A stretch of 31,933 nucleotides of DNA from a virus, in IMG/VR virus record IMGVR_UViG_3300020172_001197, positions 1-31,933 of that record. One strand, 5' to 3'. Made by a program: the position numbers and the translations under genes. A model generated the notes under the pieces. That model did not search any database, was not told the DNA's origin, and was given only the letters and a program-made list of their open reading frames with translations. This document shows, piece by piece, positions 1-15,208 of the stretch (its first letter is position 1; every line of letters starts with the position of its first letter).

Positions 1-4
1 ACAA

Positions 5-18
5 GACCTGAGGAGGTC
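5..18 (+). promoter_or_regulatory. SD-bearing hairpin, copy 0
   Basis: Stem GACCT (5-9), loop GAGG (10-13), stem AGGTC (14-18). The loop plus the 3' arm form the Shine-Dalgarno sequence AGGAGG for the ATG at 26. The same 14-mer recurs before the starts at 597, 2282 and 3783, and in a compensated form before 3125. The upstream part of the element lies outside the window. Confidence 0.75.
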
Positions 19-25
19 ATTAATC

Positions 26-481: not shown

Positions 482-590
482 ACATCACGGGGTGTCCCCC
501 CGCCCCGTGGTGTCCTCAAAGGTCATCAGCAGGTTGCTGGTGGCTTTTGAGGGCATACAATTGCCCGTTAAACCTAGACCTGAGGAGGTC
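482..590 (+). promoter_or_regulatory. Intergenic multi-hairpin RNA element, copy A
   Basis: Four adjacent inverted repeats lie between the gene ending at 465 and the helicase start at 597. H1 pairs 482-492 with 503-513 (11 bp, one wobble). H2 pairs 511-531 with 535-555 (21 bp including wobbles, loop GGT). H3 pairs GGGCA 551-555 with TGCCC 562-566. H4 is GACCT 577-581 with AGGTC 586-590 and holds the ribosome site. H1/H2 share 511-513 and H2/H3 share 551-555, so they compete. No U-run follows H2, which argues against a plain terminator. Confidence 0.75.
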
Positions 591-596
591 AAAATC

Positions 597-2111
597 ATGA
601 ACCAAAACTTAAACGAACTTCGGGCGTTCCTTGCCACTCTTGACAAGGCGCCTGAACCCATGCACGTCTCGTCTGAATTGCATGCACTATCCAGTGCCAG
701 CGATGCAGACATTGACATTGTGCTGGATCGTGCGCTCTATCCATTTCAACGTGCTGGTGTGGCTTATGCACTCCGCCAGCGCCGATGCATCATCGGTGAT
801 GAGATGGGGCTGGGCAAAACGATTCAGGGCATCGCTGTCGTTGCTCAGGCTCACAAAGAGGGAATGAAATCTCTAGTTGTTGTGCCACCTTCACTTCGCC
901 TGAACTGGCAACGTGAATTCAAAGCGACAGCGCCATGGCTCTCAGTCGCCATCGTCACTGGCAACACTGTGACCGAAGTTCCTAAAGCAGACGTGATCAT
1001 CATTGGAGACTCCAATGTTGATCAATGGGCGACCGCTCTTTGCAATGCTCGTTTCGGTTGCCTCATCGTTGATGAAGCACACCGTGCGAAGAATGCAAAA
1101 GCGAATCGCACCAAGGGCATCGTCAGCATCGCCAAGTCAGTAAATGATAAAGGTTATGTTGTCCTGCTCTCGGGCACCATCGTCGTTAATCGTCCAGCGG
1201 AATTGGTGTCGCCTCTTACCATCATCGGTCGCCTTGACCGTGTATTCGGAGGTCGCCACTCATTCCTTCAGCGTTACTGCGACCCCATCCACAATGGCTG
1301 GGGCTGGGTGTACAACGGCGCCAGCAACACGACTGAATTGAATGCGAACATGCGTGGCACCTGCTACGTACGTCGCAAGAAAATGGACGTGCTGACTGAG
1401 TTGCCTGCGAAGCGTCGTGCACAAGTGAGTGTGGAAGTGCCTGAGGTGGCACTCATCCAGTATCGCCACGCCGAAGAGGACTTCCGTGACTTTGTCATCA
1501 CCAATGGTGGTGCACAGGCATGGGACAAAGCCTCAAAGGCTGAAGTGATCACTCGCATCAACGCACTACGCCATCTGCTTGGCAACGCCAAAGTCGCCAA
1601 CGTGGTTGAACATGTTGAGAACCTGCTCGCTGAAGATGAGCAGGTAATCGTGTTCGCTTATCACACTGACGTGATCAACACCATATGCAAAGCACTTGCT
1701 TCGCACAATGTCGTGAAAGTCGGGGGCGGTATGACGGACGACGCCAAGCAGAGCGCTGTTGATTCATTCCAATCGGGTGAGGCAAGAGTGTTCGTGGGTC
1801 AATTTCAAGCGGCTGGTGTGGGTCTTACCCTCACAGCATCCAGCAACGTGGTCATGGCAGAAATTCCATGGACGCCTGCGGATGCAGTGCAGGCAGAAGA
1901 TCGCTCACACCGCATCGGCAACACGGTAGGCACCATGGCATGGTGGCTCACTGTTGCTGACGAGGATCGTCCTACCATTGATGACCGTATGTGGGCATTG
2001 CTCAATGCAAAGCACACGACGGTAAGTGCCGTCCTAGACGGCTACGGCGTTGATCTCGGCGCTGAGGGTGGCATACTTGCTGACCTCATTGACGGGATCA
2101 TCGGCAACTGA
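597..2111 (+). CDS. SNF2-family DEAH helicase/ATPase
   Basis: A 504-aa superfamily 2 ATPase of the SNF2/RapA type that probably translocates on or remodels DNA during replication or repair. Visible motifs are Walker A GDEMGLGKT (67-75), the DEAH box (159-162), SGTIVVNRPAEL near 192-203 (motif III, with Ile where Pro is usual) and QAEDRSHRIGN (432-442, motif VI). The start at 597 is chosen because it follows AGGAGG in the repeated SD hairpin; an in-frame GTG at 492 would place coding sequence through the hairpin element and has no ribosome site. It lacks obvious accessory domains. A second, divergent SNF2 helicase is encoded on the other strand at 26681-28225. The exact DNA substrate cannot be read from the sequence. 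Confidence 0.93.
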   Translation: MNQNLNELRAFLATLDKAPEPMHVSSELHALSSASDADIDIVLDRALYPFQRAGVAYALRQRRCIIGDEMGLGKTIQGIAVVAQAHKEGMKSLVVVPPSLRLNWQREFKATAPWLSVAIVTGNTVTEVPKADVIIIGDSNVDQWATALCNARFGCLIVDEAHRAKNAKANRTKGIVSIAKSVNDKGYVVLLSGTIVVNRPAELVSPLTIIGRLDRVFGGRHSFLQRYCDPIHNGWGWVYNGASNTTELNANMRGTCYVRRKKMDVLTELPAKRRAQVSVEVPEVALIQYRHAEEDFRDFVITNGGAQAWDKASKAEVITRINALRHLLGNAKVANVVEHVENLLAEDEQVIVFAYHTDVINTICKALASHNVVKVGGGMTDDAKQSAVDSFQSGEARVFVGQFQAAGVGLTLTASSNVVMAEIPWTPADAVQAEDRSHRIGNTVGTMAWWLTVADEDRPTIDDRMWALLNAKHTTVSAVLDGYGVDLGAEGGILADLIDGIIGN

Positions 2112-2160
2112 TTGCAAGAGCATTCGCTGGCGCAACTGGTTCTGCCGACTACGAATGACA

Positions 2161-2274
2161 GGGTGCCCTCTTTCCTCGGGGGGCACCCACTTTCGCTTGA
2201 AGGTGCCATAGAGCATCGGTATCACACCGCTGTTCTATGGTGCAATCACGCACTACTAGAGACCTGAGGAGGTC
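2161..2274 (+). promoter_or_regulatory. Intergenic multi-hairpin RNA element, copy B
   Basis: H1 pairs GGGTGCCC 2161-2168 with GGGCACCC 2181-2188. H2 pairs 2203-2220 with 2226-2243 (18 positions, one mismatch and a few wobbles, loop ATCAC). H3 pairs GTGC 2240-2243 with GCAC 2250-2253, where other copies have GGGC with GCCC. H4 is GACCT 2261-2265 with AGGTC 2270-2274. The 2240-2243 arm is shared by H2 and H3. The ATG of the next gene follows at 2282. Confidence 0.72.
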
Positions 2275-2281
2275 ACAGATC

Positions 2282-3004
2282 ATGTCAACCATTACACCAA
2301 AGCAACAAAACTTCTTGCGCTCACTCTTAATTGAGCGGGCACCGTCTTTAGAGATTGATGAGGCTGGGGTTGATTCTTTAATTAAAGAGTTCAATCTTGA
2401 TCGCTTAACTGCGAAGTCCGCATCGTTCTGCATTGACCATGTCAAGAAGATCAAGGTGCTCCGATTGGATTCGGCGCACCTGCCCAATGATGCTGAACGT
2501 GTCATTGCGAACAACTACGCCAAGCCTTGTGCCCTCTGTGGCAACACAGTGCCCAAGAGCGAAGGCTTCGCAGTGCTCGTCAGTGGCACATGGAGCACCT
2601 ATCACAAAGAGGGCGAATGCCCAGCCAGTGAGGGCGCTCCAGCCCCAGTGCGAAGCCTCAACGACATCCTCAAGGATGTTCGTGACGGGTACTTCGCAAT
2701 CACGTCAAAGGGCACCAATGATCTCGTGTTCTACCGTGTCGCCACTAACAAGGGCTTCCACAACCCTTCAAAGAAGGGTGAGCGGTACGTTCAACTGATC
2801 GTTGGCGGTCATGCCAATGAGACTCTCACTGGCAAGCGGGCACAGGCTTCAGCGAATCGTCTTGCTGAACTCAGCCCACTGGAGCAACACGAAGCACAAG
2901 CCACATACGGCAAGGAAATTGGCGCATGTGGTAAATGCGGGAAGCATCTCACGGACGAAGTATCTCGTGCCTACGGCATGGGTGCGACGTGTCGTGCGAT
3001 GTAA
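2282..3004 (+). CDS. DUF6011-type zinc-binding protein
   Basis: The 240-aa product starts at the ATG after the SD hairpin (an in-frame GTG at 2237 would run through the element). It has an N-terminal helical region, a CALCG-type Cys pair in the middle, and a C-terminal module CGKCGKHLTDEVSRAYGMG followed by a final Cys, which is the pattern of the DUF6011 zinc-binding tail found in many actinobacterial and phage proteins. The central part (FAITSKGTNDLVFYRV) resembles the region that usually precedes that tail. Zinc binding is inferred from the Cys spacing. Its role is unknown; a nucleic-acid-associated function is plausible. Confidence 0.82.
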   Translation: MSTITPKQQNFLRSLLIERAPSLEIDEAGVDSLIKEFNLDRLTAKSASFCIDHVKKIKVLRLDSAHLPNDAERVIANNYAKPCALCGNTVPKSEGFAVLVSGTWSTYHKEGECPASEGAPAPVRSLNDILKDVRDGYFAITSKGTNDLVFYRVATNKGFHNPSKKGERYVQLIVGGHANETLTGKRAQASANRLAELSPLEQHEAQATYGKEIGACGKCGKHLTDEVSRAYGMGATCRAM

Positions 3005-3013
3005 AGAATCAGG

Positions 3014-3117
3014 GCGTCACGAACTACGGTTCGTGGTGCGCTCAGGGTGCACGGAGGTCTTCCCCCTTCGTCCTTCGTGCACTCTGAGGGCACTTGCCCA
3101 CCGACGCCTGAGGAGGC
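3014..3117 (+). promoter_or_regulatory. Intergenic multi-hairpin RNA element, copy C
   Basis: H1 pairs 3014-3024 with 3029-3039 (11 bp, loop TACG). H2 pairs 3041-3057 with 3072-3088 (17 bp, two wobbles). H3 pairs GGGC 3088-3091 with GCCC 3096-3099. H4 is GCCT 3106-3109 with AGGC 3114-3117; compared with the other copies both sides of one base pair changed (A-T to G-C) and the SD core stayed intact. Next ATG at 3125. Confidence 0.78.
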
Positions 3118-3124
3118 AAACATC

Positions 3125-3673
3125 ATGAATAAAAACGCAACTTTTCAAGACATCGTTGACAACAAGCAGACGCTCTGCCAATACGCAAAGCAACTGTTGG
3201 CAAACCCTGAGTTTGCTGAAGACGAAGACTGGTGGGATGCGTTGTATGTCAACGGTTTCACTTTTGACATCAACGGATACCACTGTCAAAACAACAAAGG
3301 TGAAAAGGTCATCCGATTAACGGCATACCCAGTCATGTGGGTAAACGATTACGACGGTCAGACCAACACCAGCGTTTGGTTACAACTGGTGGAAGAAAAC
3401 GTGAAGACAAAGGTGATACAAGAAGTCTTTAACTCTTCTAAAGAATTCCACAAGGAGAAGAACGACTTCATTAAAGTCATCGGGCGTTACGTGGATGAGA
3501 CCGAGACCATGGAAAAGACTTTCGGAACCATCCCTAAAGGCTTTGATGGCAACACTGAAGACTTAGAGGGCGACGAGTTCGTCCACTACTGGCTTGAGTG
3601 GGATGAAGAGATCAAGATTGGCGAAGAGTACGGCGAATTCGTCGTGCTGGACGCTATGCGACCCAAGTGGTAA
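3125..3673 (+). CDS. Hypothetical acidic protein, 182 aa
   Basis: The start is the ATG after the compensated SD hairpin of copy C. The product is strongly acidic and rich in Trp and Tyr (DEDWWDALYVNGF; FVHYWLEWDEE), soluble, with no transmembrane segment or recognisable motif. It stands alone between two structured RNA elements. Phage proteins with this composition are often host-interaction proteins, but nothing in the sequence proves that here. Function unknown. Confidence 0.75.
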   Translation: MNKNATFQDIVDNKQTLCQYAKQLLANPEFAEDEDWWDALYVNGFTFDINGYHCQNNKGEKVIRLTAYPVMWVNDYDGQTNTSVWLQLVEENVKTKVIQEVFNSSKEFHKEKNDFIKVIGRYVDETETMEKTFGTIPKGFDGNTEDLEGDEFVHYWLEWDEEIKIGEEYGEFVVLDAMRPKW

Positions 3674-3686
3674 GTAACCACTACGG

Positions 3687-3780
3687 GTACAACATCCATT
3701 TAGGATGTTGTGCTCAGAGTACATGGACGATAGTTTGTGTGCTCTGAGGGCAACAGCCCATCTAGAGACCTGAGGAGGTC
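3687..3780 (+). promoter_or_regulatory. Intergenic multi-hairpin RNA element, copy D
   Basis: H1 pairs 3687-3697 with 3703-3713 (11 bp, loop ATTTA). H2 pairs 3713-3728 with 3733-3748 (16 bp with wobbles, loop GATA). H3 pairs GGGC 3748-3751 with GCCC 3756-3759. H4 is GACCT 3767-3771 with AGGTC 3776-3780, only two bases before the ATG at 3783. The loop sequences of H1-H3 differ from copy C while the stems persist. Confidence 0.78.
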
Positions 3781-3782
3781 AT

Positions 3783-3968
3783 ATGAAATACACATTGAGA
3801 GTTACCGAGACCGTCAACCACGACTACGAGATTGAGGCTGGGTGTGAGGAAGAAGCACTGGAGATCTACCAGTCGTACGACGACGAGCAACTAAAGACGC
3901 TTGACCTTGACGGCAGTAGTGATTGGGACACACACCCTTGGGATATTTCAACGGAGGAATCAGAATGA
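3783..3968 (+). CDS. Small acidic protein, DpnD/PcfM-like (paralogue 1 of 3)
   Basis: The 61-aa product begins MKYTLRVTETVNHDYEIEA and continues with EEEALEIYQSY. A short beta-strand start followed by an E-E-A-L helix resembles the DpnD/PcfM-like small protein family (Pfam), though this is a weak pattern match. It is the first of three consecutive genes with the same layout and opens the nine-gene overlapping run behind copy D of the RNA element. It ends in ATGA, coupling it to the next gene. Function unknown. Confidence 0.72.
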   Translation: MKYTLRVTETVNHDYEIEAGCEEEALEIYQSYDDEQLKTLDLDGSSDWDTHPWDISTEESE

Positions 3969-4150
3969 AATACGAAATCATTGCATACAGCACAACCCGC
4001 TTAACTTCATACGTTACGGCTAACTCTGAAGAGGAAGCCATGCGTTTGTGGGGGTTGGGGTTAGATGATGGCACGACGGAATACTCCGAACCTACGCCAT
4101 TTGAAATAGACGAAGTAAATGAAAGACCACTAGAGGAAGTAAAAAAATGA
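3965..4150 (+). CDS. Small acidic protein (paralogue 2 of 3)
   Basis: The 61-aa product starts at the ATG overlapping the previous stop (ATGA), with the ribosome site GGAGGA ten bases upstream. It begins MKYEIIAYSTTRLTSYVTA, then SEEEAMRLWGLG, matching the strand-then-EEA-helix layout of its two neighbours. The three genes probably arose by tandem duplication and then diverged. Very acidic. No function can be assigned. Confidence 0.7.
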   Translation: MKYEIIAYSTTRLTSYVTANSEEEAMRLWGLGLDDGTTEYSEPTPFEIDEVNERPLEEVKK

Positions 4151-4311
4151 AAAAGTACACACTCACATACGAGAACGTGATTCAACACCGCCACGAAGTG
4201 GAGGCTGAATCAGTAGAAGAAGCACTCAGACTATTTGACAAGAATGAATCAGTTTGTGTGCATACGATAGAAAAATGGAACACCACAGACATAGAGGAAG
4301 TAACACAATGA
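4147..4311 (+). CDS. Small acidic protein (paralogue 3 of 3)
   Basis: A 54-aa frame overlapping both neighbours by ATGA. It begins MKKYTLTYENVIQHRHEVEA and continues VEEALRLFDKNES, the same pattern as the genes at 3783 and 3965. The ribosome site AGAGGAAG lies just upstream. It is short enough to be missed by length filters but its paralogy and two overlapped junctions support it. Function unknown. Confidence 0.68.
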   Translation: MKKYTLTYENVIQHRHEVEAESVEEALRLFDKNESVCVHTIEKWNTTDIEEVTQ

Positions 4312-4556
4312 GCATCACACACACGCACTACTACGTCATCTCGTATGACACAGGAACCAATAAATGGACATGGGATAACGAAGCCGAAGAGATGCAATTC
4401 CCTGAAGGCACCGTTGTCAACCACGACAACAATGAGTGGGGATACGCACTCATTGATGGCGAGGAATGCATTGACTTTGAAACAGAAACAAAATTAGGCG
4501 AAGACCTAGAAGTAATCATCAACTACCTAAACGAAGGATTGGAAGTATTCAAATGA
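4308..4556 (+). CDS. Hypothetical acidic protein, 82 aa
   Basis: The ATG at 4308 overlaps the preceding TGA and follows an AGAGGAAG ribosome site; in-frame upstream starts lie inside the previous gene. The product begins MSITHTHYYVISYDTG and is acidic, probably a small mixed alpha/beta protein with the ending IINYLNEGLEVFK. No known family. It belongs to the coupled small-gene run. Confidence 0.68.
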   Translation: MSITHTHYYVISYDTGTNKWTWDNEAEEMQFPEGTVVNHDNNEWGYALIDGEECIDFETETKLGEDLEVIINYLNEGLEVFK

Positions 4557-4858
4557 ACTACATGAACTATCAGCAACTGCGTGACTACGCACTCCAGTGC
4601 TCACTAGAGCACCACCTCTGCAATGTGCAGGAATTAATGGAAGAAGGAAAAACACCTGACGACATCCTCGCCATGGTGGAGGAAGGAAACGACTCCGTCA
4701 TAATCTACGAACCATACGAATGGTGCAGTGAGGAAGAACTCGTAGATGAAATAGAAAGTGTACGAGGCGTCAACGTCTACAACTTCCTGTTCGTACTGCG
4801 CCAAGTCAACAGCCAAGAGTGGTTGATCAAGTTCAAGGGTGAGGAGACTCAGTCATGA
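4553..4858 (+). CDS. Hypothetical acidic protein, 101 aa
   Basis: ATG overlaps the previous TGA (ATGA). The product has several acidic stretches (VQELMEEGKTPDDILAMVEEG; EEELVDEIES) and looks helical and soluble. No motif is recognised. It is the fifth gene of the coupled run and its stop overlaps the next ATG. Function unknown. Confidence 0.68.
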   Translation: MNYMNYQQLRDYALQCSLEHHLCNVQELMEEGKTPDDILAMVEEGNDSVIIYEPYEWCSEEELVDEIESVRGVNVYNFLFVLRQVNSQEWLIKFKGEETQS

Positions 4859-5148
4859 AGAAAGAAGTGCTGGACACCGTAGTCCACGGCGACATCATAT
4901 CTAAGCGATACAAAGGCAAGATCACTCGCTTTGTCGTGACCGCACGTACCCGATCAGGCACACACTTTTGGGTGCGTGACCTGAAATGGGGTGACGACGG
5001 TTGGTATGACGTAAACCACGATCTCACACGTTCCGCATGGTTCGCTGTGGAGCACACAAACCTGAAGTGGGGCAACTGTACGGGTTGGTATGACCTAGAC
5101 CAAGACCTCACACGATTCACTGAAGAATACGACAAGGAGGAGGCATGA
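4855..5148 (+). CDS. Hypothetical protein with internal tandem repeat, 97 aa
   Basis: The 97-aa product contains two copies of LKWG-x(3 to 4)-GWYD-x3-DLTR, beginning at codons at 4981 and 5062, 81 bases apart; the DNA of the two units is also clearly similar, so a recent in-gene duplication is likely. The N-terminal part (VVHGDIISKRYKGKITRFVV) looks like a small beta-rich fold. No family is recognised. Coupled by ATGA to both neighbours. Confidence 0.7.
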   Translation: MKKEVLDTVVHGDIISKRYKGKITRFVVTARTRSGTHFWVRDLKWGDDGWYDVNHDLTRSAWFAVEHTNLKWGNCTGWYDLDQDLTRFTEEYDKEEA

Positions 5149-5354
5149 GCGTTGAACAAGACCGAACAACAGAACTTGGTAACCAAGCGTTACGGGAAGC
5201 CCTGTTGGTTATCGGAGGAGTAGACGGGTACAGACTGGAAATGGCAGAGCAACGGATTAGCAGAGCCATAGAAATACTGGGGGGAAGTCGTCAAGAACTT
5301 TTCTCAAATGCGGAAAAATACTTATCAGAACTACAACAAAAGGAACCATCATGA
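5145..5354 (+). CDS. Hypothetical helical protein, 69 aa
   Basis: The start follows AAGGAGGAGG closely and overlaps the previous TGA. The product is predicted to be almost entirely helical (ALREALLVIGGVDGYRLEM, then AEQRISRAIEILGG). No family is recognised. It sits in the coupled small-gene run, overlapping its neighbours by four bases on both sides. Function unknown. Confidence 0.66.
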   Translation: MSVEQDRTTELGNQALREALLVIGGVDGYRLEMAEQRISRAIEILGGSRQELFSNAEKYLSELQQKEPS

Positions 5355-5623
5355 GCACATACACAGTAACTGCAACATGGGATGGAGTCGCTGAAGTCAT
5401 CGCACTCAGCGCCGACACCCGCATAGAAGCCTACGAATCTGCCATTGGCACTATCCTTCGGAAGTTTCACGACTCCGATCAAGGAAAAGTGCTCCAGCGG
5501 GTGTGGAGGTACGGAGAGATCACATTCCGTGATCCCGACGGTGAAGTCATTCAAGTACTGGAAAAGAAAATGGATGAGTACTCCTCCACCTTCAAAGCAC
5601 TGGAAAGGCTGATAGAAGCATGA
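5351..5623 (+). CDS. Hypothetical protein, 90 aa
   Basis: Coupled to both neighbours by ATGA. It begins MSTYTVTATWDGVAEVIALS, followed by RIEAYESAIG, a strand-then-helix layout loosely like the three paralogues at 3783-4311, though the similarity is too weak to claim homology. It ends with a helix (FKALERLIEA). Function unknown. Confidence 0.68.
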   Translation: MSTYTVTATWDGVAEVIALSADTRIEAYESAIGTILRKFHDSDQGKVLQRVWRYGEITFRDPDGEVIQVLEKKMDEYSSTFKALERLIEA

Positions 5624-5901
5624 TTGACAACCAAGACTCTGACCTCGTCTCTGACTACAGCACACCGCTGTACGACGATGACCAGTACAGCAAGATAGAA
5701 GTGCTGTGGGTGAGCGCCCCACAGCCACAAGGGTTCCTGATCGGATCAGGGATTGATGTGAATACGCAGGAGACCGTGGAGTGGGCTAGTAATAGCCTTG
5801 ACATGGTCTTCACTGCGGAGATGCTCAACGAGGAAGACCCCGTGTACTGCCTCGTACCATATTGGCAAGAAAGATCTAGGAGGAATAATGCGCCCGCATA
5901 G
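5620..5901 (+). CDS. Hypothetical acidic protein, 93 aa
   Basis: ATG overlaps the previous stop. The product is acidic and contains a hydrophobic central strand region (IEVLWVSAPQPQGFLIGSG). Its 3' end contains the ribosome site and start of the membrane-protein gene at 5888, overlapping by 14 bases in another frame. No family is recognised. Confidence 0.66.
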   Translation: MIDNQDSDLVSDYSTPLYDDDQYSKIEVLWVSAPQPQGFLIGSGIDVNTQETVEWASNSLDMVFTAEMLNEEDPVYCLVPYWQERSRRNNAPA

Positions 5902-6145
5902 CAGGCTTTTAATGTTCATGGGAATACTCACGATTCTTTTAATCGGAGCCAGTATGCCCAGCGACCCAACACTGGACGGGGTTCCCGATTGGTCAGACAG
6001 AATCTTTGTAGGCATCCTGTGCCTTATCTGCTTCTACAACATCATTCGGGCAATCTCGGACATGTCATACAAGACCAAGCCAAACCACAAACCACAAGTT
6101 CGTCAGCACCACCATGTTGACAAGCGTCGTAAAAAACTTAAGTAG
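5888..6145 (+). CDS. Small two-helix membrane protein, 85 aa
   Basis: The ATG follows a clear AGGAGG site (5878-5885). Two hydrophobic segments, about residues 7-23 (LLMFMGILTILLIGASM) and 39-58 (IFVGILCLICFYNII), are separated by a short acidic loop and followed by a very basic, His-rich tail (HHHVDKRRKKLK), so both ends are probably cytoplasmic. The size and topology would fit a small holin or another phage inner-membrane protein, but the lysozyme-like gene is far away at 9262-9756 on the other strand. A terminator-like hairpin follows at 6158. Function uncertain. Confidence 0.7.
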   Translation: MRPHSRLLMFMGILTILLIGASMPSDPTLDGVPDWSDRIFVGILCLICFYNIIRAISDMSYKTKPNHKPQVRQHHHVDKRRKKLK

Positions 6146-6157
6146 AAGTTGTAAACC

Positions 6158-6197
6158 AAAGTGTTACGGGGATAGATTTATCTCCGTAACACTTTTT
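6158..6197 (+). terminator. Rho-independent terminator or attenuator
   Basis: A near-perfect 16-bp stem pairs 6158-6173 with 6180-6195 (one wobble), loop AGATTT, followed by TTAATTT. It lies between the membrane-protein stop and the DUF932 gene, so it either ends the small-gene operon or attenuates read-through into DUF932 and WhiB. Confidence 0.8.
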
Positions 6198-6227
6198 AAT
6201 TTAAACCAACCAAGAGAAAGAAACATC

Positions 6228-7235
6228 ATGTCCAAAGAATCCAGCCAATGGCTCAACCAAAATGTCCTCGTAGGCATGACCTCCAAGCGTGGAAACGCAT
6301 GGCACTACAAGGAGAACGAACAAGGCTCAGAGCCAAACCACTACATCGGAGCAATCCCCATTGACGACGTCCGTCGTCGTCTCTTCCACTGGAGCGCCGT
6401 AGAAGCACCTGTCTACGTCTACGCTGGTGGCAACTATCACAACCAAGAAGACCGCAAGGCTGTCGTCCGTGACGACACCTTTGAAACTCTCGGTGTGTTC
6501 AAAGATGGTTACTCCATCCACCAGTACAGCGAGTGGCTCCTTGACACCGTGTCCAACATCATTGACGACAGCAACCTTCAGATTGGTTCTGCTGGGCTGT
6601 TGAAGAATGGTGGAGTCGCATGGGTCTCCATTGAGATGGAAGAGAACCTCACCGCTGAGGGCTTTGAGTTCCGTCCGCACCTCCTCGCCACCACCAGCCA
6701 CAACGGCACGTTGGCTACCACCTTCAAGCGTGTGTGCACCGCTGTGGTGTGCGACAACACGCTCGCCGCAGGACTTGGTGAGCAGGGTCAGGAGCACAAG
6801 ACACGCCACAGCAAGCACAGTGGCTTCAAGTTGCAGAACGTCCGTGACGCTCTCGGCATCGTTCACTCGTTCGCAGATGACTTCACCGCTGAGATCCAGC
6901 GCCTGTGTGCCATCTCGGTGACCGACTCTGAATGGGACGCCATCGTCAATCGCATCATCCCAGTGGCTTCAGAAGGCGACTCACGCCCTCAGGCAATCAG
7001 CCGTGCTCAGAACAAGCAGGAGGCAATCCGCCACCTCTACAAGTACGACGACCGCTCTGCACCTTGGGCAGGCACCGCTCTTGGCGCTCTGCAAGCCTTC
7101 AACACCTACAACCACCACCTCACAGGTAAAGACGAGTCACGAGTTGAGCGCAATGCGTTCAACGCTCTCACTGGCAAGACCAGCGAGTTTGACCGCTTCG
7201 TACTCAACGTGATTAACGAGGTGGTATACGCATGA
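6228..7235 (+). CDS. DUF932 phage/plasmid-like protein
   Basis: The 335-aa product matches the DUF932 (TIGR03299-type phage/plasmid-like) family. Cues are the N-terminal ID-x2-RRRLFHW segment, a GVFKDGYSIHQYSEWL region, and the conserved FKRVCTAVVCDNTLAAGL block with CDNT. The start at 6228 follows GAGAAAGAAAC; an upstream in-frame ATG at 6114 would read through the terminator hairpin and is rejected. The family is common in phages and plasmids and has no settled biochemical role. The gene overlaps WhiB no. 1 by ATGA, so the two are probably co-translated. Confidence 0.9.
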   Translation: MSKESSQWLNQNVLVGMTSKRGNAWHYKENEQGSEPNHYIGAIPIDDVRRRLFHWSAVEAPVYVYAGGNYHNQEDRKAVVRDDTFETLGVFKDGYSIHQYSEWLLDTVSNIIDDSNLQIGSAGLLKNGGVAWVSIEMEENLTAEGFEFRPHLLATTSHNGTLATTFKRVCTAVVCDNTLAAGLGEQGQEHKTRHSKHSGFKLQNVRDALGIVHSFADDFTAEIQRLCAISVTDSEWDAIVNRIIPVASEGDSRPQAISRAQNKQEAIRHLYKYDDRSAPWAGTALGALQAFNTYNHHLTGKDESRVERNAFNALTGKTSEFDRFVLNVINEVVYA

Positions 7236-7579
7236 TCGCCCAGCGCAGTGGGGAGGGGGATACCCCCCTTCCCACCCGTGGGGTAGAACTACCGTCCCCA
7301 AATTATGTGGATGACGGAAGATGGCGAGACCAAGCCCTCTGCCGGGAACATGGGAACGACGTGTTCTTTTTTGAAATGCGTCGGGGGCAATCCCCCAAAG
7401 CCATCCGTGAGCACATTGATCATGCCATCAGCATTTGCATTTCCTGCGAAGTACGCCTCCAGTGTTTGAACTTTGCAATACGCAGTGGAGAGCGCTATGG
7501 CGTGTGGGGTGGTGTGGACTTCAAGAAAGTCAGAGGCGCCGTCCGCAAAGAGTTACTCAGTGCAGTTAGCAACCTATAG
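7232..7579 (+). CDS. WhiB-family Fe-S transcriptional regulator no. 1
   Basis: The 115-aa product has the four Cys of a Wbl protein, C37, C69, C72 and C78, with the C-x2-C-x5-C spacing, then the turn motif ERYGVWGG (87-94) and a basic C-terminal tail. Wbl proteins bind a [4Fe-4S] cluster and act with the primary sigma factor; they are restricted to actinobacteria and their phages, so this marks the host group. Phage copies can alter host or phage transcription. The gene overlaps DUF932 upstream and its last 14 bases overlap the convergent glycosyltransferase gene. Confidence 0.93.
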   Translation: MIAQRSGEGDTPLPTRGVELPSPNYVDDGRWRDQALCREHGNDVFFFEMRRGQSPKAIREHIDHAISICISCEVRLQCLNFAIRSGERYGVWGGVDFKKVRGAVRKELLSAVSNL

Positions 7580-14503: not shown

Positions 14504-15208
14504 TCATGTCCAGCCTGAGGAGGGTCGTGACCAAGAACGGGTCATGGTACGAGACTTTGCAGGGGAAGAAGCGGGTCTTGCGGGGTTCCACGGAGCAGGC
14601 GTTTGAGGTGGGTACATCTTGCCTAAGTTAGCGTTAATGCTCGCAGGGGAACCTTTGCCAACAAACGGAAGTGGGGCGGGCGCCGTAACAGGGGCAGGCT
14701 TAGGAAACATCTTTGTTAAGTTAGCGTTGATTGCCCCCGGAGTTCCTGTAGAACTCCAAGGCGTAGACGTGGGGGCAGCAGTTCCGTACCCATATGCGTC
14801 TGCGTATTTATTGGCTAATTGATTGGACTGTGACGCTTTAGAACCTTGTTGATAGGCACCTTGCCACATGTCTACGCCTTTGTTGTACGCCTCGGTTTGC
14901 TGGGTGTTGTAGTTTTGATACTGCTTAAAAAGGTCGGCGCCTTGTGTGCCGATAGCACGTCCCATCGTGGCGACGCCATTTTCACTACCTGCGCCATATC
15001 CTTGATAGTTTTCACCTCGCCACACTTGACCGATACCAATGGAAGGCGGATGGTAAGCGCCTCCACCTCCACCGCCCATGCGCCCAGCGGAAGGGATACG
15101 CCCTTGTGCTGTCCACCTGTTACGGCGGTTTTCCGCAAAATAGAGTTCACTGTTAACTTTGTCTGCAAACACAGCCCCCGTTGATGCACCATCCCATGTA
15201 CCTGCCAT
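14504..15208 (-). CDS. Low-complexity Gly/Pro-rich protein with internal repeat, 234 aa
   Basis: The product has a Gly run (45-50), a Tyr/Gln/Gly-rich middle (YQNYNTQQTEAYNKG) and two copies of G-(T/S)-P-x2-INANL-x-KM-(F/Y)-P at about 155-171 and 186-202, similar also in DNA. The tail is Ser/Pro/Arg-rich. The composition suggests a structural or disordered virion-associated protein. TAATG junction with the upstream gene. No enzymatic motif. Confidence 0.72.
   Translation of the reverse strand: MAGTWDGASTGAVFADKVNSELYFAENRRNRWTAQGRIPSAGRMGGGGGGAYHPPSIGIGQVWRGENYQGYGAGSENGVATMGRAIGTQGADLFKQYQNYNTQQTEAYNKGVDMWQGAYQQGSKASQSNQLANKYADAYGYGTAAPTSTPWSSTGTPGAINANLTKMFPKPAPVTAPAPLPFVGKGSPASINANLGKMYPPQTPAPWNPARPASSPAKSRTMTRSWSRPSSGWT

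Follow-up and report, generated by a model that had tools for sequence, protein, structure and literature searches.

A predicted two-state leader RNA in the hammerhead ribozyme slots of an uncultured phage group

Introduction

Between the early genes of phage T7, RNase III processing hairpins split the polycistronic mRNA and leave structured ends, the usual substrate of RNase III being a duplex of about two turns. Clustered hammerhead ribozymes in turn flank single prophage genes, for which cutting of the transcripts into mRNAs of one gene each was proposed, and three hammerhead arrays cleaved in vitro and one in vivo (Perreault et al. 2011, PMC3088659). In cluster K mycobacteriophages, the start-associated sequence (SAS) is a 13-bp GGGATAGGAGCCC near the start codon, and the extended start-associated sequences (ESAS) are 46–47 bp motifs with SigA-like −35/−10 hexamers within a sequence-conserved inverted repeat of 17 bp (PMC3203893, PMC11373665). 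Here we describe an RNA element, the type I leader, of which four copies (A–D) are present in a 31,933-nt fragment of an uncultured virus (IMG/VR record IMGVR_UViG_3300020172_001197, positions 1–31,933), the whole of which is referred to as the window. The element comprises three hairpins (H1, H2, H3) and then a Shine-Dalgarno (SD) hairpin (H4), and it was compared across a single phage group, of which about 30 contigs were collected from IMG/VR by pattern and protein scans.

Judged from sequence, the type I leader is real, an as yet unnamed phage RNA with two states, and it fills the slots of hammerheads. New here are the two-state element, the slot shared with hammerheads and a second RNA, and the common captured-strand design in the hammerheads.

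Results

Type I leader copies in the window

Single-strand folding resulted in the order H1-H2-H3-H4 in each of the copies A (z-score −6.7), B (−5.6), C (−6.1) and D (−7.2), with 0/200 shuffles equally stable. The initial annotation had placed four copies with this hairpin order here, which was confirmed both by folding and by a covariance model trained on 36 copies (alignment A1, with A–D among them), with scores of 80.3 (A), 73.9 (C), 70.1 (D) and 52.1 bits (B) and E-values from 1e-17 to 1e-10.

All four copies are on the + strand. In copy A, H1 and a 2-nt linker TC occupy 479–514 (paired core 483–512, linker 513–514), followed by the long hairpin H2 of 17 bp (515–551), which is extendable through the linker at the cost of the H1 base and H3, by H3 (551–566, GGGCA/TGCCC), and by the SD hairpin GACCTGAGGAGGTC (577–590), with the helicase start codon at 597. 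Copy C is composed of H1 (3015–3038), a 2-nt linker CG at the H1/H2 boundary (3039–3040), H2 (3041–3088), H3 (3088–3099, GGGC/GCCC by pairing) and H4 GCCTGAGGAGGC (3106–3117), the start codon being at 3125; its H4 is of just 4 bp with the TGAGGA core unchanged. The linkers of A and C are the predicted cut regions. Copy D has an 11-bp H1 (3687–3713), a 16-bp H2 (3713–3748), H3 (3748–3759, again GGGC/GCCC by pairing) and H4 (3767–3780) before a start codon at 3783; a cut in this copy would be expected near 3711–3713.

Copy B is atypical. Its 11-bp H1 (2161–2188) is separated by a 13-nt gap from H2 (2202–2243), and H3 (2240–2253, GTGC/GCAC) overlaps the H2 base, so that the two are mutually exclusive; H4 (2261–2274) precedes the start codon at 2282. 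The near-constant 2-nt linker between H1 and H2 has no gaps in alignment A1, where copy B, with its longer true gap, is misaligned. The H1 of this copy, with ACTTTCGCTT after it (2161–2198), was also the sole terminator-like hairpin among the four leaders in a lax scan.

The distance from stop codon to H1, read by eye in the window only, was about 10–13 nt in A, C and D, and a promoter scan returned no promoter-like site in the four leader gaps of the window. The SD core in the window, CTGAGGAGG, is set in a hairpin of 4–5 bp, and CCTGAGGAGG was located on the + strand at 7, 579, 2263, 3107 and 3769, and also at 14514 without leader context. The first of these belongs to a fifth SD hairpin (5–18, + strand) of a 58-aa gene starting at 26, the leader of which is cut off by the left edge of the window (1–25); a hammerhead is present in the homologous slot of the related contigs L126 (+3681) and L131 (+7423).

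Covariation and two exclusive pairing states

About 145 type I copies scored above 33 bits with the covariance model in 30 related contigs, and within the phage group they were in sense orientation to the next gene and directly 5′ of the SD hairpin. In the register of H1, extended H2 and H4, 98.0% of the alignment cells were paired over the 36 copies, and 23 of the 30 pairs had changes on both sides. The covariation score of the extended-H2 register was 0.619, versus 0.236 in shuffled alignments and at most 0.133 with slid partners (0/500 shuffles). In H4, the core was invariant and the stem covaried. The view of the initial annotation that the arms differ while pairing is kept under selection is thus well supported, as pairing was far above both controls and the hairpin order recurred in the related genomes. 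Independent events are fewer than sequences because the type I subtypes are related; within the nearest relatives of the window, copy B had fresh compensating changes in H2.

When the H1 base is lengthened and H2 shortened, the resulting alternative register was likewise 98.0% paired with a covariation score of 0.593 (36 copies), the controls of the two registers being 0.23–0.24 after shuffling and at most 0.13 with slid partners. Both registers use columns 67–69 of alignment A1 in common, column 68 being paired with column 39 (A-U 21, G-C 12) or with column 123 (U-A 23, C-G 12), and the C-G version of the column pairing was found in more than one gene slot. Columns 119–124 of H3 also pair within the extended H2, and H3 strength was 13.8 versus 10.6 ± 0.36 in cross-paired controls (0/300). 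Since the H2 base and the H1 base with H3 are mutually exclusive and both covary, the element is predicted to be built for two exclusive states, i.e. extended H2, or H1 base and H3. That H3 and the extended H2 base cannot coexist had been missed by the initial annotation, as had the sharing of the slot with hammerheads and a second RNA.

In other phages, the covariance model found no type I match at 91 loci bearing hammerheads, and in 100 loci picked by the SD pattern the type I scores were low and explained by that pattern itself. With Rfam 15, no match above the gathering threshold was obtained in the window and eight relatives, in line with the earlier suggestion of an unnamed phage RNA family, and at relaxed threshold the type I and type II leaders returned chance matches only.

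Hammerhead ribozymes in the leader slot

When the sequence upstream of each SD hairpin was folded, three kinds of leader emerged: type I, a second unnamed RNA (type II leader) and the type II hammerhead. Median folding z-scores without the SD hairpin were −7.3 (type I, n = 48), −3.0 (type II leader, n = 25) and −3.3 (hammerhead, n = 9).

In the closest relatives of the window, L126 and L131, the leader slot holds type II hammerhead ribozymes with the layout stem II strand, GAAA, stem III hairpin, GUC, stem I hairpin, CUGANGA and stem II strand. The Rfam model Hammerhead_II gave four matches in L131 of 28.2–35.1 bits (E-values 1e-4 to 8e-3, gathering threshold 37), with the entire core aligned and the core bases intact, and a strict hammerhead motif finder returned 15 in L126 and L131 and matched nowhere in 2.0 Mb of shuffled sequence. 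Along the arrays of both contigs, hammerheads and type I leaders succeed one another, and all three kinds of leader occur in L068, whose single hammerhead is imperfect, with an extra U ahead of stem II. The CUGANGA/GAAA/NUH core was absent in copies A–D, which had no Rfam match at either gathering or relaxed threshold.

The hammerheads of this group follow the same H1-H2-H3-H4 order as type I. Their CUGANGA strand is complementary over 6–7 nt to the nucleotides just 3′ of it in 14 of 15 cases, compared with 24 of 194 in other phages, and the captured-strand H3 that results excludes stem II and the core. Moreover, N7, which is free in hammerheads, tracks the base of stem II in nearly all group hammerheads (T7 with AUGAC/GUCAU, C7 with ACGAC/GUCGU). 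After a hammerhead cut, the upstream RNA would end 3′ in stem III, and the downstream RNA would carry stem I, H3 and the SD hairpin at its 5′ end.

Of the phage type II hammerheads elsewhere, 163/192 were at most 100 nt (median 24 nt) from a start codon with SD, and most of the phage hammerheads found adjoin gene starts on the upstream side. Arrays of 6–9 type II hammerheads within a few kb were seen in L354, L368, L346, L317, L323 and L286. Additionally, nnCCTGAGGAGGnn SD hairpins precede genes in L144, L156, L170, L172, L236 and L243 (and L073, L086, L094), of 37–52% GC, where the leaders by eye are type I hammerhead-like (CTAG-CUGAUGA...GAAA...GUC-CTAG). The pairing of hammerhead and SD hairpin may recur in other phages. 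Hammerhead-like leaders with a CUGAAUGA core containing one extra A, possibly slow variants, were seen in L073 (ca. 960–1055), L026 (minus strand) and L086 (ca. 3360–3441). A further leader hairpin, CACGAAGCCATC...GATGGTTTCTTGGTGTT, precedes SD hairpins in L073 (3400–3470, 3740–3812), L086 (4950–5020, 5230–5300) and L243 (2550–2620, 3660–3730), and had no Rfam match at gathering threshold.

Type II leader of sister phages

In sister phages, the leader slot is occupied by the type II leader, a three-way junction with an invariant UUCAAU loop (CCCCAG-CGAC-UAG-GUCG-UG-CGGA-UUCAAU-UCCG-A-CUGGGG-ACU, then a variable hairpin). Examples are located at 274–355 and 902–983 in L014, 3818–3901 in L068 and 2776–2855 in L185, with about 38 more. 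Helix P1 encloses P2 and P3, GUG and UUCAAU are strictly invariant, and changes on both sides were found in 10 of 16 pairs of P1, P2, P3 and H4. The type II leader has the slot and the SD hairpin in common with type I, and differs in being shorter, in the arrangement of P1 around P2 and P3, and in the invariant GUG and UUCAAU. The UUCAAU loop is T-loop-like by eye; a cmscan of one L137 stretch for tRNA-likeness returned nothing, and the exact type II pattern was not present in GTDB genomes. With its invariant segments, the type II leader qualifies well as a candidate new ribozyme or nuclease site.

The type II leader was absent from the window, L126, L131 and L132 and common in sister phages. 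Because their distributions across the phages are nearly the reverse of each other, type II leaders and hammerheads each seem to fill slots of one kind in their own lineage.

Leader swaps at homologous genes

When proteins downstream of 135 leaders were clustered, homologous genes with different leaders were recovered. Type II and type I leaders, respectively, precede proteins of 94% identity in L014 (+342) and L185 (+3284), 87% in L138 (−4456) and L139 (+4227), 80% for the helicase in L068 (+8212) and L014 (+3909), and 74% in L241 (+1951) and L014 (+3077), and the reverse order holds for the 75% identical proteins of L138 (−5914, type I) and L128 (+2601, type II). The gene with a hammerhead in L131 (+4866) in turn had a remote homologue (23–27% identity, E-value 4e-6) that is preceded by type II leaders in L014, L185 and L218.

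Phage group and neighbouring genes

An actinobacterial host is indicated by a WhiB gene (7232–7579) in the window together with its remote likeness to phages of Streptomyces, Arthrobacter, Rhodococcus and Microbacterium. Several contigs of the group are 95–97 kb long, and since the helicase gene straddles both ends of a 94,948-nt record, the genome is circular or permuted. In records read whole, the SD-hairpin core was confined, 1–2 isolated matches aside, to one block of co-directed genes of about 7–10 kb, in which a strongly conserved folded leader RNA lies directly 5′ of nearly every gene.

In the window, copy A serves an SNF2/DEAD-type helicase gene (597–2111), copy B the gene of a 240-aa protein with C-terminal DUF6011 (2282–3004), and copy C that of a 182-aa protein without family match (3125–3673), all on the + strand. 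Downstream of copy D (3783–7579), no leaders occur and the rightward genes overlap or are tightly packed, the last being DUF932 (6114–7235) and WhiB.

Discussion

Among described systems, the type II hammerhead (RF02276), which is clustered in phages, has in common with type I the slot before a gene and SD hairpin, the hairpin order and an exclusive H3, and the two are interchangeable in position across related phages. Type I differs from it in lacking the CUGANGA/GAAA/NUH core and any Rfam match, and in its longer helices (H2 ca. 16–21 bp). The T7 sites resemble type I as intergenic RNA hairpins, type I cutting being a prediction; they are single irregular hairpins with no SD hairpin, H3 switch or ribozyme alternates. 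With SAS and ESAS, type I has in common a short SD-bearing palindrome a few nucleotides from the start codon, an inverted repeat that precedes it in about half of the cases, and a location outside structural genes. The initial annotation had noted a formal likeness to ESAS and proposed that the element processes or regulates a set of transcripts; processing is plausible, whereas the ESAS likeness found no support. ESAS are sequence-conserved repeats bearing a promoter, whereas the arms of type I vary with pairing kept and its four gaps had no promoter-like site. Nor is the SD core CTGAGGAGG of the window the 13-bp SAS GGGATAGGAGCCC. In the right arm of phage Anaya, neither a type I match (E ≤ 10) nor a hammerhead was found. 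As type I differs from ESAS in every defining feature tested, identity with ESAS was rejected.

On balance, we consider it probable, with moderate confidence, that type I serves as a leader for intergenic RNA processing and end protection, with a function equivalent to that of the hammerhead. The rightward gene block would be transcribed as one long RNA, in which the RNA before each gene would fold into its second state with H1 abutting the extended H2. The messages would be parted by a cut in or beside the 2 nt that join H1 to H2, the upstream one ending in H1 and the downstream one beginning flush with H2, followed by H3, the weak H4 and the start codon. H3 and the H1 base, which could form only once the H2 base opens, would then lock in the cut state, free the two halves from each other and keep a structure at either end. 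This mechanism is proposed because a type I linker cut would leave the same set of ends as a hammerhead cut. Host RNase III would be our first guess for the cutter, and self-cleavage the alternative, though another nuclease might also serve; the H2 core of 16–17 bp, ca. 20 bp in the extended covarying register, attains the duplex length usual for RNase III. The little room for promoters in the gaps of A, C and D also counts in favour of processing.

Several observations weigh against such processing. Neither RNase III nor RtcB genes were found when looked for in these phages, so that a host enzyme would have to act, and type I has no conserved unpaired core or catalytic motif. The wide H1-H2 gap of copy B does not fit a cut at a constant linker, and the exchange of a hammerhead for another leader is supported by the single remote protein pair. 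An outer stem, which would close type I into a three-way junction like that of the hammerhead, is possible (strong in one slot), with a strength of 10.75 that is not above the cross-paired control (10.58 ± 0.36). Finally, the shared slot could be explained by end protection or translation control instead of cutting.

On that last account the leaders would be uncut 5′-UTR elements of stability and translation only, H1-H2-H3 shielding the mRNA and the SD hairpin helping to set translation. Structure with little sequence conservation fits a passive shield, and the SD hairpin has an invariant core in a covarying stem, but hammerheads, which cut, would be left unexplained in the same slot, as would the hairpins flanking a near-constant 2-nt linker and the two conserved exclusive registers; we therefore regard this account as unlikely. 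Guilt by association led to the pistol, hatchet and twister sister ribozymes, and type I both sits in hammerhead slots and shares their captured-strand design, which speaks for a new self-cleaving class. Its loops and junction are, on the other side, variable with no invariant unpaired core, the co-resident type II leader, with its invariant GUG and UUCAAU, is the better ribozyme candidate, and a ribozyme of type I itself appears improbable. It is doubtful, though conceivable, that hammerheads were replaced slot by slot in one lineage by new self-cleaving classes (type I, the type II leader or both), each having a hairpin of its own to capture the catalytic or pairing strand after the cut.

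Termination of the preceding gene by tandem hairpins, with the next gene transcribed independently, seems very unlikely. Tandem hairpin terminators without a U-run have been argued for some actinobacteria, GC-rich hairpins directly follow the stop codons, and H1 of copy B passes a lax terminator scan. The GC-rich hairpin with U-run of an intrinsic terminator is nevertheless missing in A, C and D, where no U-run follows H1 or H2, and the earlier statement that H2 is not a simple terminator holds. The ca. 6–10 nt from H3 to the SD hairpin leave no room for a downstream promoter, of which no promoter-like excess was seen, and H2, H3 and H4 are conserved though any stop made by H1 would come before them. 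An ESAS-like element acting in DNA, with the inverted repeats bound by protein or serving as operator or promoter, is hardly credible: repeated intergenic inverted repeats do precede phage genes, but the arms differ while pairing is kept, the orientation is strand-fixed, the element is coupled to the SD hairpin and replaced by ribozymes in the same slot, and the Anaya ESAS gave no match to the type I model.

Before the genes of this phage group, two unnamed RNAs and a known ribozyme substitute for one another, so that the leaders form a natural series. Through this series, the long-open role of phage hammerhead arrays becomes directly testable, and candidate new ribozymes or nuclease sites are pointed to. 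The captured-strand hairpin of the hammerheads in turn offers a specific and checkable way to irreversible cleavage and a structured 5′ end.

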